Positions 3,363 to 63,204 of a stretch of DNA of 64,000 nucleotides are shown in pieces. The notes under the pieces were generated by a model that was given only the letters and a program-made list of their open reading frames with translations, was not told the origin of the DNA and did no database searches. The stretch covers positions 1-64,000 of the forward strand of contig NZ_RHOD01000009.1 in NCBI RefSeq assembly GCF_003946095.1. Direction: 5' to 3'. This DNA comes from Levilactobacillus lindianensis (lineage in GTDB: Bacteria; Bacillota; Bacilli; Lactobacillales; Lactobacillaceae). Both the position numbers and the translations under genes were made by a program. Position 1 is the first letter of the stretch, and the number at the start of each line of letters is the position of its first letter.

Positions 3363-3398
3363 AAAAACACCAACTCGCAATTGCGAGTTGGTGTTTTT
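3363..3398. terminator. Bidirectional terminator between glnQ and the surface-protein gene
   Basis: A fully self-complementary hairpin with five A on one side and five T on the other works in both directions. It separates the plus-strand transporter operon from the convergent surface-protein gene. Confidence 0.9.
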
Positions 3399-12725: not shown

Positions 12726-12775
12726 TAAGATCAAATCAAGCCAGGACATCGCCGTCCTGGCTTGATTTGATCTTA
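12726..12775. terminator. 22-bp perfect inverted repeat, bidirectional terminator
   Basis: Arms 12726-12747 and 12754-12775 are perfectly complementary over 22 bp with a 6-nt loop. The hairpin lies between convergent mscS and cbpB genes. The last bases of the right arm are the stop codon of cbpB. There is no long T run, so termination or mRNA 3'-end protection would rest on stem strength. Confidence 0.7.
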
Positions 12776-20967: not shown

Positions 20968-23607
20968 TTAGTCCTGATCCGCTAACCAAGTTTCAGCAGC
21001 GGTCATGGCATCTGGTAACCCAGCTGGGTTCTTACCACCGGCCTGGGCCAAGTTTGGCCGTCCACCCCCACCACCATTAATCTTTGGTGAGATGGCTTTG
21101 ATCAAATCGCCAGCTTTAACCTGTTTCTGTTTGTCGGCACTAACGGCGACGATCAAGTTAGCCTTACCGTTGACTTCGGCTCCCAATACTAACACATCCG
21201 AAAGGGCTTGGTCACGCCAAGTGTCAGCGAGGGCCCGTAATTGGTCCATCTTGGACACCTGAACCGTCCCACTGATCAGCTTGTAATTTCCAGCCGTAAC
21301 CACGTGGTCAAAGACGGCACTGGCCTCTTGACTTGCCAGCTTGCCTTCTAAGGTCGCTTGTTTCTGTTCTAAGGCCTTAACTTGAGCTTGTAGGCTCTGG
21401 ACCTTCTGTTCCACTTCAGTGTCCTGAGTGACCTTTAAATCGCCAGCTACGGCGTCTAAGATTTCACTCCGACCCTGTAAGTAGCGATAAGCAGCGGCTG
21501 AGGTAACGGCTTCGATCCGTCGTACCCCGGCACCCACACCAGATTCGGAAGTAATCTTGAACAGCCCAATTTCGTTCGTGTTCTTTACGTGATTCCCACC
21601 ACAAAATTCGGTCACAAAGTCGCCGGCACTGACTACCCGAACGACCTTACCGTACTTTTCACTAAAGAGAGCAATGGCGCCCATCTTTTTAGCAGATTCA
21701 ATGTCGGTTTCCACCGTCGTAACGGGAAGTTCCGCAAAGATCTTCTCATTAACGATGGCTTCGGCCTTGGCCAAGTCGGCAGGATCAACCTGACCGAAGT
21801 GGGTAAAGTCAAACCGCAAGTAGTCCCCTTCAACCAAGGAACCGGCTTGTTGGGTGTGCTCACCAAAGACGTCACGTAAGGCCTTATCCAACAAATGGGT
21901 TGCGGTATGGTTCTTTTCGACCTTACTGTGGAAGACCGTGTCAACCTTGAGCTGGTAAGTTGCGCCCTTCTTCAAAGGTGCAACGACCGTCAGTGTATGC
22001 AGGTTCTGGCCGTTAGGCGCGTGTTGCACATCGGCAACGTGAGCAACCACGTGTCCGGCTTCATCCAAGATGTCCCCTTTATCCGCAACTTGACCACCCA
22101 TTTCGGCATAGAACGGCGTCTTGTCGAACATGGCTTCGGCCGTTCCAGTCGTGGCTTCATCGGCCAGTTGGTCATCAACGACCAACTCAGTCAACGTACT
22201 GGTTGTTGCTAATTGCGTGTAACCCACGTATTCACTCGGGGTTGTCACGTTGATTAACAAGTCGTGCTGCAGGCCCATCGCCTTTTGCTTGCCCCGGGCG
22301 TTGCGTGCCCGATCCTTTTGCTTCTGCATCTCGGCCTTGAAGCCGTCAACATCCACCGTAATGCCTTGATCGTCGGCATATTCTTCGGTTAATTCAACCG
22401 GGAAGCCGTACGTGTCGTAGAGTTTGAAGGCGTCGGGGCCGGCAATCTGGTTGCCACCCTGCTTCTTCAAATCAGCAATCAGACTGTTCAACAGCGTTAA
22501 TCCGCCATCCAACGTTTCCCCAAAGCGGTCTTCTTCAGAACGAACCACCTTGGCAATGTAGTCGGCTTGTTTGAGCACATCTGGGTAGTAAGATTGCATA
22601 ATCTTCCCAACCACTGGCACTAATTGGTCTAAGAAATCCCCTTCGATCCCCAGTTTTTGACCGTTAACAATGGCCCGCCGAATTAAACGACGGATCACGT
22701 AGCCTCGGCCTTCGTTACCTGGTAAAGCACCGTCACCAATGGCAAAAGTAATGGCCCGGGCATGGTCAGCAATCACCTTGAAGGACACGTCGTCCTCGTG
22801 ATTGGCACCGTACTTCTTGCCATCGCTGAGTTCTGCGGTCTTCTCGATAATTGGTAAGAAGAGGTCGGTTTCAAAGTTAGTCCGCGCATTTTGGAAAATC
22901 GAAACAACCCGTTCGAGCCCCATCCCCGTATCAATGTTCTTCCGTGGCAATGGCTTGTAGGTCCCATCTGGCTCATGGTTGAACTGCGAAAAGACGATGT
23001 TCCAAACTTCAAGGTAGCGTTCGTTTTCCCCACCAGGATAGTTTTCAGGATCATCGGCGGCCAGGTTGTTGAAATCTTCGCCCCGGTCATAGAAAATTTC
23101 GGAATCAGGACCCGAAGGACCCTCACCAATATCCCAGAAGTTATCTTCCACGGCGATGATGTGGTCGGGTGCCACGCCGGCAGCCTCCCAATCAGCCTTG
23201 GCATCGGTGTCCTTGGGATAAACGGTCATGTATAGTTTATCTGGATCCCAACCAAACCAGTCAGGTGACGTCAAAAGTTCCCACGCCCAGGTGATCGCTT
23301 CTTTCTTGAAGTAATCCCCCACGGAGAAGTTCCCGAGCATTTCAAATAACGTGTGGTGCCGGGCAGTCTTCCCCACATTTTCAATATCATTGGTCCGGAT
23401 ACTCTTCTGTGAAGAGGTTAACCGTGGATTCTCTGGCACAACTTGGCCGGAGAAGTATTTCTTCATGGTCGCAACCCCAGAGTTGATCCACAGCAACGAC
23501 GGATCATCCTTAGGAACCAGCGATGCACTGGGTTCAATCGTGTGGCCCTTAGACTTGAAAAAGTCCAGGTACATCTGGCGAATTTGACTGCTACTTAGGT
23601 CTTTCAT
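20968..23607 (-). CDS. alaS: Alanyl-tRNA synthetase
   Basis: Class II synthetase of 879 aa, normal length. The aminoacylation core is N-terminal (MKDLSSSQIRQMYLDFFKSKGH, then motif 2/3 region with GMGLERV). The editing domain carries the zinc/catalytic signatures HTATHLL and CGGNHV. The C-Ala domain ends the protein and includes the GGGGGRPNLAQAGG glycine-rich segment. Start at 23607 with GGAGG upstream. It is expressed behind a consensus promoter and an alanine T-box leader. Confidence 0.97.
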   Translation of the reverse strand: MKDLSSSQIRQMYLDFFKSKGHTIEPSASLVPKDDPSLLWINSGVATMKKYFSGQVVPENPRLTSSQKSIRTNDIENVGKTARHHTLFEMLGNFSVGDYFKKEAITWAWELLTSPDWFGWDPDKLYMTVYPKDTDAKADWEAAGVAPDHIIAVEDNFWDIGEGPSGPDSEIFYDRGEDFNNLAADDPENYPGGENERYLEVWNIVFSQFNHEPDGTYKPLPRKNIDTGMGLERVVSIFQNARTNFETDLFLPIIEKTAELSDGKKYGANHEDDVSFKVIADHARAITFAIGDGALPGNEGRGYVIRRLIRRAIVNGQKLGIEGDFLDQLVPVVGKIMQSYYPDVLKQADYIAKVVRSEEDRFGETLDGGLTLLNSLIADLKKQGGNQIAGPDAFKLYDTYGFPVELTEEYADDQGITVDVDGFKAEMQKQKDRARNARGKQKAMGLQHDLLINVTTPSEYVGYTQLATTSTLTELVVDDQLADEATTGTAEAMFDKTPFYAEMGGQVADKGDILDEAGHVVAHVADVQHAPNGQNLHTLTVVAPLKKGATYQLKVDTVFHSKVEKNHTATHLLDKALRDVFGEHTQQAGSLVEGDYLRFDFTHFGQVDPADLAKAEAIVNEKIFAELPVTTVETDIESAKKMGAIALFSEKYGKVVRVVSAGDFVTEFCGGNHVKNTNEIGLFKITSESGVGAGVRRIEAVTSAAAYRYLQGRSEILDAVAGDLKVTQDTEVEQKVQSLQAQVKALEQKQATLEGKLASQEASAVFDHVVTAGNYKLISGTVQVSKMDQLRALADTWRDQALSDVLVLGAEVNGKANLIVAVSADKQKQVKAGDLIKAISPKINGGGGGRPNLAQAGGKNPAGLPDAMTAAETWLADQD

Positions 23608-23629
23608 CTCTCAATACCTCCAAAAAAGT

Positions 23630-23845
23630 ATAAAAAACACCGTTGCCCGTAAAGACGCCGAAGCGCGGTACCACTTTACTTGCAACGATGTTCTAATCGT
23701 TTACCTCTTAAACTCATAACGCTGAGTCGCGATGTTTCCGAGGGAGCACCAGCATCAAACCGAATCGTTTTTCACAGCAGCCAAAACGTTTCTGAAAGAC
23801 GGTCAGACATGGCATATCCTCAAAAGTTTATTTAATTGTTGTCCA
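23630..23845 (-). ncRNA. T-box riboswitch of alaS (alanine)
   Basis: The leader between promoter and alaS contains the T-box core AGTGGTACCGCG (23675-23664 on the minus strand). A terminator hairpin ends in T6 (23637-23632). A GATGCT context gives specifier GCT (Ala) at 23753-23751. The bulge TGGT predicts pairing with an A discriminator base, as in tRNA-Ala. Uncharged tRNA-Ala should stabilise the antiterminator and switch alaS on. Confidence 0.88.
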
Positions 23846-23851
23846 TTTGAA

Positions 23852-23880
23852 ATTATAGGTGGCCACCGTCGCCTTGTCAA
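23852..23880 (-). promoter_or_regulatory. Consensus alaS promoter
   Basis: Perfect TTGACA (23880-23875), 17-nt spacer, perfect TATAAT (23857-23852) on the minus strand. This is the best promoter match in the window, as expected for a gene controlled by attenuation. Confidence 0.88.
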
Positions 23881-23920
23881 TCTTCGACACTGAATATGTT
23901 TGTCTCTGTCCAGCGCCTTC

Positions 23921-24073
23921 GGGTTGGTGAACATGGGCTGGAGGACGCCCAGAGCCGAAGTGCGGTCTCTGAACTTGCCCTTAAGCCTCCAAAACCGAGT
24001 CTCAAGGGCACCAATTCTCTAAGCGGTAAACCGCTAAGCGAATTCCCACAGCTGAGCCCATGTTCACCAACCC
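23921..24073. ncRNA. Candidate structured RNA, stem-closed three-hairpin element
   Basis: A 19-bp perfect inverted repeat (23921-23939 with 24055-24073) encloses three hairpins: 23950-23971 (AGAGCCG with CGGTCTCT, one bulge), 23976-24010 (TGCCCTT with AAGGGCA) and 24013-24044 (AATTC/GAATT outside AGCGG/CCGCT). Together this resembles a four-way junction. It lies between the helicase stop and the alaS promoter. No open reading frame with a ribosome site fits. The strand is undecided because the stems are mostly perfect Watson-Crick; I do not recognise it as RNase P, tmRNA, SRP or a T-box. Confidence 0.5.
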
Positions 24074-24082
24074 TACGGCTGA

Positions 24083-24157
24083 CACGGTGTGTTACTTCGA
24101 TAACGGTAAAGTTTTACGCCAACGCCACCGTCTTACCTATAGATTCACACACCCGTG
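24083..24157. other. Second stem-closed domain in the helicase-alaS gap
   Basis: A 10-bp stem with one bulged C (24083-24092 with 24147-24157) closes a 54-nt loop that can form smaller hairpins. It adjoins the 19-bp stem element. On the minus strand it would be the first structure after the helicase stop codon, but it lacks a T run typical of a terminator. Confidence 0.4.
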
Positions 24158-24172
24158 CGTTACCAGTTAGTT

Positions 24173-25531
24173 TTATTGGTAACGATCTGACTCACGCTTA
24201 CGACGCTTCCGTTCGTTTCGGGCACTCTGACGGGCGGCAACCCGCTTTTCCTGGTCCTTACGACGATGAATTTCTTGCTTGATTTGATGCTTGTAACCAG
24301 GCTTGATCTTCTTCTTCTTTTTCATCACGTAACCAATCAGTGATGGGTCCAGTTTTTGCGTACTCTTACGCCGCTGTGTCCGCCGGTTTCGGTCATAGGA
24401 ATCAACAATTTCACCGTTACTGATCCGCTTAGGCTGGAACTTAATGCCCATCTTTTCAATCTCAGCAATCTTGGCTTCTTCATCTGGTGAGTACAGGGTA
24501 ATCGCCGTTCCTGGCATCCCCTGACGACCGGTCCGGCCAACCCGGTGAACAAAGAAATCCAGATCTTCTGGCACATCATCGTTAATCACGTGGGAGACCC
24601 CTTCAATATCAATTCCTCGAGCAGCCAAGTCGGTTGCGACAACGAATTGGTACTGGAGATTCTTCACTTCACGCATGACCCGCTTTCGTTCACGGGGTTT
24701 GATACCCCCGTGAATCATGGCGACCTTCAGACCCTGGGCCTTCAAAAAGTCATGGATTTGTTCCACTCGATCCTTGGTGTTGGCAAAGATCAGAACCAGG
24801 TAGGGTTCCCCCATCGTGATCAATTGATAGATCAATTGATTCCGGTTTTGACCCTTGGTTGAAATTAACCAGTTATCGATCGTCGATGAGATCACCGTCG
24901 CCGTTGGAATTTCTTCAATAACGGGATGATTCATGTACTTCTTCAAGAATGGATCGAGTCGTTGTGGGATCGTTGCGGAGAACACCATCATTTGAAGGTG
25001 GCTTGGCATCCGACTGGCAATCTTATCAACTTGGTCTAAGAATCCCAGATCCAGCGTCATGTCGGCTTCATCGACAACGAATTGCCGCGTGGTGTGGACA
25101 TCTAAGGCCTGTGATTGGATTAAATCTTGCACTCGTCCAGGAGTTCCGATCACGAGTTGTGGTTGGTAATGGTGTAATTTATTCACTTGACGCTGCTTAT
25201 CAGTTCCCCCGACGTAGTTCCCAATTCGAATTTCAAATGGGGCTTCGGCGGCCAATTGTTCCGCCGCGGTGTGAATTTGGTAAGCCAGTTCCCGGCTCGG
25301 CGTGGTAATCACGGCTTGAACTTGGTTTTCTGACGTTAATTGATTAAAAATTGGCAGTAAAAAGGTATGGGTCTTACCACTCCCGGTTTGGGATTGGCCA
25401 ACCACATCTTTCCCCGAAGCGATTACGGGGATTAATTTAGCTTGCACCGGTGTTGGCTCGGTGAAACCAATCTTTTGCAAGGCCGTCATCAAGTACGGTT
25501 GCAAGTTGAATTGCTTAAAATTTGCGGTCAT
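24173..25531 (-). CDS. cshB: DEAD-box RNA helicase, CshB-like
   Basis: The 452-aa ATP-dependent RNA helicase has ordered motifs Q (FTEPTPVQ), I (SQTGSGKT), Ia (TTPSREL), Ib (GTPGR), II (VDEAD), III (SAT), V (ATDLAARGID) and VI (HRVGRTGR). A strongly basic C-terminal tail (KKKKKIKPGYKHQ...ARQSARNERKRRKRES) probably aids RNA binding. Length and tail resemble B. subtilis CshB (YqfR), which helps cold-shock growth and ribosome assembly. Its ATG overlaps the stop of the upstream nrnA-like gene by 4 nt. Confidence 0.92.
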   Translation of the reverse strand: MTANFKQFNLQPYLMTALQKIGFTEPTPVQAKLIPVIASGKDVVGQSQTGSGKTHTFLLPIFNQLTSENQVQAVITTPSRELAYQIHTAAEQLAAEAPFEIRIGNYVGGTDKQRQVNKLHHYQPQLVIGTPGRVQDLIQSQALDVHTTRQFVVDEADMTLDLGFLDQVDKIASRMPSHLQMMVFSATIPQRLDPFLKKYMNHPVIEEIPTATVISSTIDNWLISTKGQNRNQLIYQLITMGEPYLVLIFANTKDRVEQIHDFLKAQGLKVAMIHGGIKPRERKRVMREVKNLQYQFVVATDLAARGIDIEGVSHVINDDVPEDLDFFVHRVGRTGRQGMPGTAITLYSPDEEAKIAEIEKMGIKFQPKRISNGEIVDSYDRNRRTQRRKSTQKLDPSLIGYVMKKKKKIKPGYKHQIKQEIHRRKDQEKRVAARQSARNERKRRKRESDRYQ

Positions 25532-46763: not shown

Positions 46764-46800
46764 AAAAAACGCCCTCTTGAGACTAACTCTCAAGAGGGCG
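46764..46800 (-). terminator. T-box terminator 2
   Basis: CGCCCTCTTGAGA pairs perfectly with its complement around a 5-nt loop and is followed by T6. Closest terminator to the permease start. Confidence 0.9.
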
Positions 46801-46878
46801 TTCGACCGCGGTTCCACCTCATGTACTCGATGGGCTCACGCCACACCGACTCAGGGAGTTGCCCGCCGCCACAAAAAT

Positions 46879-46915
46879 AAAAAAAGTCCCCTTAGGTCCA
46901 AAGACCTAAGAGGAC
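46879..46915 (-). terminator. T-box terminator 1
   Basis: GTCCTCTTAGGTC pairs, with one mismatch or wobble, around a 3-nt loop and is followed by T7. It belongs to the upstream platform. Confidence 0.9.
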
Positions 46916-47145
46916 GATCACATCGTGGTTCCACCTCTGTTTGTTAAACCATCACTGGTCTAACCTCAGCGAGTTGCTAGCAACTCCAGCGATAACGGAC
47001 TACCCCGGGTCATCCTACTAGATTCAGACGACCAACTCACAGATGTGTTTCGGTTAACCAAGGACACCCGTTTCCATCGACCGGGCTTTCTGTTGAGACT
47101 TTGGTGACCTACTCTTCTGTTCAACGTTATTCATTCATTGACAAC

Positions 47146-56334: not shown

Positions 56335-56568
56335 AAAAAAACTCTCCATCCTAAAAATTAGGACGAAGAGTTCTTCGCGGTACCACCTAAATTGGGCGTT
56401 TATGCCCCACTTAACTTCTTTGTTAACGGAGAGTGCTCCGGAATGACCTTACTTTAAGTTCAGGTCATCAGCTCACAAGCTACGTTCACGTCTCACGACT
56501 GACCGGTTTTCAGCACCCCGGCTCTCTGCACAGTCCCTCAAACGCTACTGACTTGCTCCTAGCTATTT
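56335..56568 (-). ncRNA. T-box riboswitch of valS (valine)
   Basis: Single, canonical leader. T-box core AGGTGGTACCGCG at 56388-56376 (minus strand), terminator with T7 at 56371-56335, and specifier GTA (Val) at 56483-56481 in a GTGAACGTAGC context. The TGGT bulge predicts an A discriminator base as in tRNA-Val. Confidence 0.9.
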
Positions 56569-56574
56569 TTAACT

Positions 56575-63149: not shown

Positions 63150-63204
63150 ATAACAAAAGCAGTCGCATCCCCCACTCCAAGTGGCTTGCGACTGCTTTTG
63201 TTAT
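63150..63204. terminator. 18-bp inverted repeat, terminator for the minus-strand gene
   Basis: Perfect 18-bp arms (63150-63167 and 63187-63204) around a 19-nt loop; symmetric A4/T4 tracts let it act in both directions, in tandem with the rpsD terminator. Confidence 0.8.

Follow-up and report, generated by a model that had tools for sequence, protein, structure and literature searches.

The gap between cshB and alaS in the window, by which we mean the whole 64,000-nucleotide stretch of DNA analyzed here, raises the question of whether a strongly folded segment found there serves one of the two neighboring genes or belongs to something far more widespread. The source genome falls in the genus Levilactobacillus by its named neighbors, within the family Lactobacillaceae. 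A first-pass annotation had described a 19-bp perfect inverted repeat with three hairpins inside, and this description holds. The arms (23921-23939 and 24055-24073) are perfectly complementary over 19 bp, and the folding energy is -76.2 kcal/mol on the plus strand (z = -8.05) and -85.9 kcal/mol on the minus strand (z = -8.59), with 0 of 200 shuffles reaching as low a value on either strand. These arms are nested in a 25-bp repeat (23915-23939/24055-24079) that is 92% complementary. The outer arms alone are unexceptional, since six perfect inverted repeats of at least 14 bp within 250 nt occur in the window and one of them (22 bp, 12726-12775) exceeds these arms in length. The exceptional part of the element is the conserved fold that they enclose. 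Apart from these arms, the perfect inverted repeats at 12726-12775, 3363-3398, 63150-63204 and 46768-46802 measure 15-22 bp, have a short loop or none, and are perhaps terminators.

Comparison with relatives shows that the element, which is located between the cshB stop codon and the alaS promoter, extends from 24080 to 23912 on the minus strand. Its parts and neighbors are as follows:

23912..24080, minus strand: full extent of the structured repeat, of type A (covariance model R1, 160 bits, E 1.2e-35)
24055..24079, minus strand: 5′ arm of the outer stem P1
23915..23939, minus strand: 3′ arm of the outer stem P1
24013..24044, minus strand: hairpin P3, with a U-U mismatch common to type B and one pair broken in the window copy
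23976..24010, minus strand: hairpin P4, with an A-G mismatch common to type B
about 23947..23974, minus strand: hairpin P5 (GAGACCG...CGGCUC)
23942..23943, minus strand: point at which the window copy lacks 11 nt that the orthologs at L012 and L013 have
24081..24172, minus strand: interval from the element to the cshB stop codon, with no type-B match in the window
23852..23880, minus strand: upstream promoter of alaS (TTGACA-17-TATAAT, 12 of 12 consensus positions), past the 3′ end of the element
23648..23831, minus strand: T-box leader of alaS, which at 51.7 bits falls short of the Rfam gathering score (93); it is a neighbor and not part of the element

Since the consensus alaS promoter lies past the 3′ end of the element, the element is outside any leader that starts there. 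The sole open reading frame of at least 60 amino acids across it (23896-24282, plus strand, 128 amino acids) runs into the end of cshB on the opposite strand; this frame looks spurious, and we take the stretch to be non-coding. The first-pass annotation had further stated that the element matches neither a terminator nor a T-box, RNase P, tmRNA or SRP RNA by familiar motifs. A terminator scan lists none over the element, which speaks against an intrinsic terminator as its identity. A search of Rfam (4227 families, release 15) gave no family above threshold over the window copy and no match there up to E = 5, which likewise speaks against a T-box or any other Rfam RNA and bears out the first-pass view that the element is new to such catalogs; the alaS T-box was the only match in 23600-24200. 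Two T-box leaders that exceed the Rfam gathering score are located elsewhere in the window, at 46907-47133 and 56356-56569 (minus strand).

The element proves to be one member of a large family of interspersed non-coding repeats of Lactobacillaceae, roughly 185 nt in length. The family comprises two types, A and B, of about 155-200 nt each, in which an extended outer stem encloses two or three hairpins. Three more copies in the window genome, diverged to 67-78% identity, were revealed by a DNA search; their folds agree over the length available, one of them being cut by a contig end. In the assembly of this genome, a contig ends inside an element copy at L003 (G000:C4). DNA matches at E <= 1e-5 occur in 17 of 35 Levilactobacillus genomes. 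A covariance model, R1, built from 27 type-A copies, finds the family in 33 of these 35 genomes (E <= 1e-3, best 77 candidates per genome) and in 120 of 397 Lactobacillaceae genomes from 13 of 40 sampled genera (best 6 candidates per genome). Among 395 genomes of the order, 25 have matches at E <= 1e-5, and 24 of these 25 are in Lactobacillaceae.

Many of the elements found by R1 (type A) are adjoined by a weaker R1 match on the opposite strand, which led to the second type, B, and to a covariance model built from it, R2. This second model also detects A elements, including the window copy at E 1.2e-15, and A and B are therefore related. Their sequences share the U-U mismatch in one hairpin and the A-G mismatch in another; elements in some species lack one hairpin. 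R1 yields 62 matches in the window genome (E <= 1e-4), 89 in Levilactobacillus paucivorans, 100 in L. humaensis and at least 150 in genome G030, and R2 yields 83 (E <= 1e-3), 125 and 135 in the first three of these, among the best 150 candidates per genome.

Copies can be very dense. In L. lanxiensis (G411), 12 stretches of 20 kb, set on a grid irrespective of matches, contain 61 R2 matches after exclusion of one opposite-strand echo. Extrapolated from these 240 kb, the density of about 254 per Mb corresponds to about 760 copies in a genome of 3 Mb, or 4-5% of its length. Eight comparable grid stretches of the window genome contain one element, and 17 stretches from three species, many of them picked around matches, contain 142 elements in 340 kb (7.5% of sequence). 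At seven loci with other members of the family, only sub-threshold Rfam matches overlap elements. The opposite strand of an element at L138 (2719-2784, minus strand) has a glutamine-II riboswitch match of 27.5 bits (cut-off 33) that probably arose by chance. We also note that a Ref68/Lacto-3 sRNA is located close to an element pair in G018 (L132 1090-1223). A search of the open full-text literature, which mostly lacks subscription papers, found no earlier description, and thus the family is apparently undescribed so far.

The dispersed copies, numbering dozens to hundreds by blastn and covariance models, fit the first-pass suggestion of a mobile miniature repeat, and they also permit a test of the fold. 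In an alignment of 119 copies fitted to the covariance model, 97.4% of 6924 cells are paired, a value that no shuffle reaches, and 47 of 59 pairs have changed on both sides, compared to 33.7 in shuffles. When partners are slid by 1-3 columns as a control, only 32-50% are paired. The covariation that the first-pass annotation named as a check is therefore overwhelming. Furthermore, G-U pairs are far more common than A-C appositions, at 387:43 for A and 126:17 for B in model-fitted alignments and 73:17 when 27 A copies are aligned by MAFFT without fitting to a model, whereas shuffled ratios are 1.6-1.7:1. This asymmetry reveals that one strand folds, as RNA or as single-stranded DNA, and that it is the strand whose 5′ end is directed toward the spacer of the paired elements described below.

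Members occur alone or in groups. A sample of 400 kb from G030 (20 stretches, 19 with matches, mostly picked around matches and with weak matches counted) contains 78 clusters, of which 38 are singles and 40 have several members. Neighbor relations there are divergent in 39 cases, tandem in five and convergent in none, and 35 of 36 two-member clusters are divergent. Within 340 kb from three other genomes, singles account for 74 of 106 clusters, and neighbors within 420 nt are divergent in 27 cases, tandem in nine and convergent in none. In a divergent pair, the 5′ ends face the spacer and the 3′ tips point outward; such pairs, with spacers of about 24-55 nt, are also present in G320 (genus g38) and in G018 (Levilactobacillus). 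Homology among G030 copies mostly fades near the tips, although the two most similar copies remain alike for some distance past them. No larger unit was found around 82 G030 copies with 1.5-kb flanks, and the sequence upstream of the 5′ ends has no conspicuous conserved motif resembling a promoter. Nearly all elements of G030 (112 of 114) are intergenic, according to a home-made gene caller that assigned 291 genes to 69% of the sequence. At two places in this genome (L112 1156-1689 and 7188-7733), A elements seem to be nested in remnants of B, with the interior of the host element gone.

A regulatory or independent RNA specific to the cshB-alaS locus, in whose favor the strong fold speaks, is highly improbable given this distribution. 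Type-A copies do reside in the same gap at seven related loci, not necessarily all derived from one insertion. However, the same fold recurs in many other intergenic regions and in both orientations, and the consensus alaS promoter and T-box lie past the element. Moreover, R1 finds nothing in 10 of 20 measurable related cshB-alaS gaps, which are short (278-349 nt); R2 was run on four of these 10. These observations also speak against two proposals of the first-pass annotation, an independent small RNA and an element of the cshB 3′ untranslated region.

The gap itself has had a varied history. A B-A pair is present between cshB and alaS in L. humaensis, L. parabrevis and an uncultured relative (L053), where a type-B partner in divergent orientation occupies the part of the gap that corresponds to the interval next to the window copy. 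The L. paucivorans gap has an A element and an apparent remnant of B, the window gap has an A element without the 11 nt, which form most of the 3′ strand of P2, and scraps remain in L. huananensis. In the explanation that we favor below, which we hold somewhat more probable than the alternatives combined, the window copy is a solo, partly worn element whose partner is gone and whose 3′ arm is incomplete. A separate stretch, starting GCACGTTTCAGARGCCGCAAG, occurs twice in the gaps of both L050 and L059 and once in that of L052. In L. paucivorans and L. humaensis, the stretches of conserved synteny carry no element except at cshB-alaS. The gap between dinB and nrnA resembles the cshB-alaS gap in its history, being 85-99 nt long at 14 of 21 loci and about 405-451 nt long, with an A element, at four; short gaps occur in more distant species.

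Copies can also be nearly or wholly absent from a genome. The CshB protein of L. huananensis (G408, L041) is 99% identical to that of the window, and yet hardly any recognizable copies are left in this near relative of the window species, with no R1 matches and two weak R2 matches (best E 3.7e-5). Genome G024 has no match to either model.

The behavior of individual sites emerges when L. lanxiensis is compared to L. mulengensis and L. wangkuiensis across regions of shared synteny. Among 193 element tests, in which most shared sites are counted from both sides, 94 found counterparts between anchors, and by this lenient criterion a same-strand counterpart was present every time; anchors were missing in 85, four were odd, six were unclear and four were absences. 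Of the absences, two retain obvious remnants, a third cannot be aligned, and the fourth (L179 6251) is possibly a plain presence/absence difference. Thus, with 85 of 193 tests lacking an anchor, no clear case of gain at a new site between close species was seen, and L179 6251 is the one possible case. More than 100 columns could be aligned for 42 site pairs; the strand is the same in all 42, and identity is 87-99.5% in 31 and below 84% in 11. Seven of the 42, all among the 11 pairs of low identity, have an A element in one species and a B element in the other. Position and orientation are therefore stable between close species, and the type differs at 7 of 42 sites. In alignments of the seven switched sites, unique flanks continue on at least one side and usually on both, and at several the outer-stem arms are at least partly shared while the interior is that of a different element. 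In four of these seven cases, the element called B is itself a chimera of this sort, its outer arms resembling those of A. Identity is 91.5% for intergenic DNA, 95.3% for open reading frames and 89.8% for shared elements, switched sites included. Because the last value does not exceed that of intergenic DNA, it lends no support to selection on the primary sequence.

Several known kinds of repeat resemble this family in part. MITEs are short, non-coding, dispersed sequences with inverted ends, and the same can be said of the family; unlike them, it has no detected target-site duplication, and its ends hold conserved folds. The BOX and RUP repeats of streptococci are high-copy, structured intergenic repeats in Lactobacillales, a description that the family shares, and BOX is modular in a different way. 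REPINs are described as extragenic inverted doublets with spacers and high copy numbers, predicted to fold in single-stranded DNA or mRNA and linked to a transposase supplied in trans (PMC3116915), with REP palindromes of 20-40 bp (PMC3733652). The family likewise forms extragenic inverted doublets with a spacer, as REPINs or REP doublets (BIMEs) do, though many of its copies are single. It differs in that each half is a domain of 155-200 nt with two or three hairpins rather than such a short palindrome, in that one site can hold different types in different species, and in that the Y1 (RAYT) family does not track it. The bcr1-bcr18 repeats of the Bacillus cereus group, which belong to a different host family, are similar by description: they are interspersed and intergenic, bcr1-bcr3 are MITE-like, and many are transcribed (PMC3446304).

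On balance, we lean toward the explanation that these are REPIN-like selfish repeats, kept by way of a folded single strand and replacement in place, and that the window copy is no regulator of cshB or alaS. The divergent pair would be the original unit and single copies what remains of pairs. Copies would persist as REPIN-like selfish DNA with the help of a factor supplied in trans that recognizes the fold of one strand, in RNA or single-stranded DNA. Old copies might be renewed when the inner domain of a resident element is replaced through the outer-stem arms, and such replacement would be more common than insertion at new sites. Our preferred reading of species such as L. huananensis is that copies decay jointly once the trans factor is lost. 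The window copy would then have no special role for either neighboring gene. Most clusters in three genomes are single, which lowers the odds of this explanation, and the trans factor was not found among three candidate families (IS200-type transposase, reverse transcriptase and TnpB). TnpB (PF07282) was rejected as a factor or guide-RNA source because copy-rich G020 and G025 have no match at E <= 1e-5, and reverse transcriptase (PF00078), for a SINE-like route, because it occurs in 10 of 35 genomes and in neither G000 nor G020. The replacement in place could be ordinary recombination between paralogs. Perhaps, and we offer this only tentatively, the elements constitute a new class, selfish or domesticated, of cassettes locked in position and orientation, whose inner domains are swapped on RNA or single-stranded DNA by dedicated machinery that recognizes the structure. 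If so, hundreds of sites per genome would be refilled repeatedly without target duplication.

The main rival to REPIN-like selfish repeats is a host role at mRNA 3′ ends, which we regard as unlikely. Read-through would place a downstream element at the 3′ end of an mRNA, where its fold could block exonucleases or transcription, and a divergent pair would serve both of two convergent genes. The constraint on one strand of the fold is as expected, and 23 of 70 regions with an element lie between convergent genes compared to 13 of 103 without (OR 3.4, p 0.002), whereas regions between divergent genes are depleted (5 of 70 versus 27 of 103, p 0.0013). Avoidance of promoters would yield the same convergent enrichment, however. 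Intergenic repeats were found to be part of an mRNA in two Bacillus cereus strains, 84 of 165 in one and 62 of 155 in the other (PMC3446304). Against such a role, tandem gene contexts exhibit no sense bias (35 elements with and 35 against the genes; 11 and 11 for singles), predicted terminators are equally common at gene ends with an element (26 of 88) and without one (24 of 89), and two species do almost entirely without elements.

Movement by known enzymes is harder still to reconcile with these data. A classical MITE, in which A and B would act as long terminal inverted repeats and a DDE transposase would be supplied from another locus, is improbable, even though the paired ends are inverted (the tips in G018 are CGCCTTACCGG/CCGGTAAGGCG) and the homology of most pairs stops near the tips. 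Examination of 36 pairs for target-site duplication gave nothing beyond chance, and long ends with a covarying fold on one strand are unlike the usual transposase-binding repeats. Carriage by plasmids or phages was also rejected, as blastn found no match in phages (two variants) and only a 40-nt fragment in two L. brevis plasmids (three variants). Therefore, the first-pass idea of a mobile miniature repeat survives in so far as dispersed copies fit it, but the classical MITE form of that idea founders on the missing duplication and the complex fold of one strand. True REPINs, moved as single-stranded DNA by IS200/RAYT-type enzymes, would account for the inverted doublets, the hairpins with conserved mismatches and the extragenic spread. 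This reading is nevertheless very improbable, and the Y1 transposase (PF01797) was rejected as a required factor, because the enzyme is absent at E <= 1e-5 from copy-rich G020 and G029 and present in G012, which has almost no copies. In addition, the A elements of G030 exhibit no replication-strand bias (27 plus versus 26 minus in one portion, 15 versus 16 in the second).

Provided that the 240 kb sampled are representative, the family makes up about 4-5% of the L. lanxiensis chromosome, with no Rfam family over the members tested. With dozens to hundreds of copies per genome, they constitute a natural covariation data set, and close species with and without elements are available for comparison. 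Elements of this kind may prompt mistaken calls of small RNAs or regulatory sequences, as well as assembly breaks, in lactobacilli. Their site-for-site switching between types is not readily explained by standard transposition.
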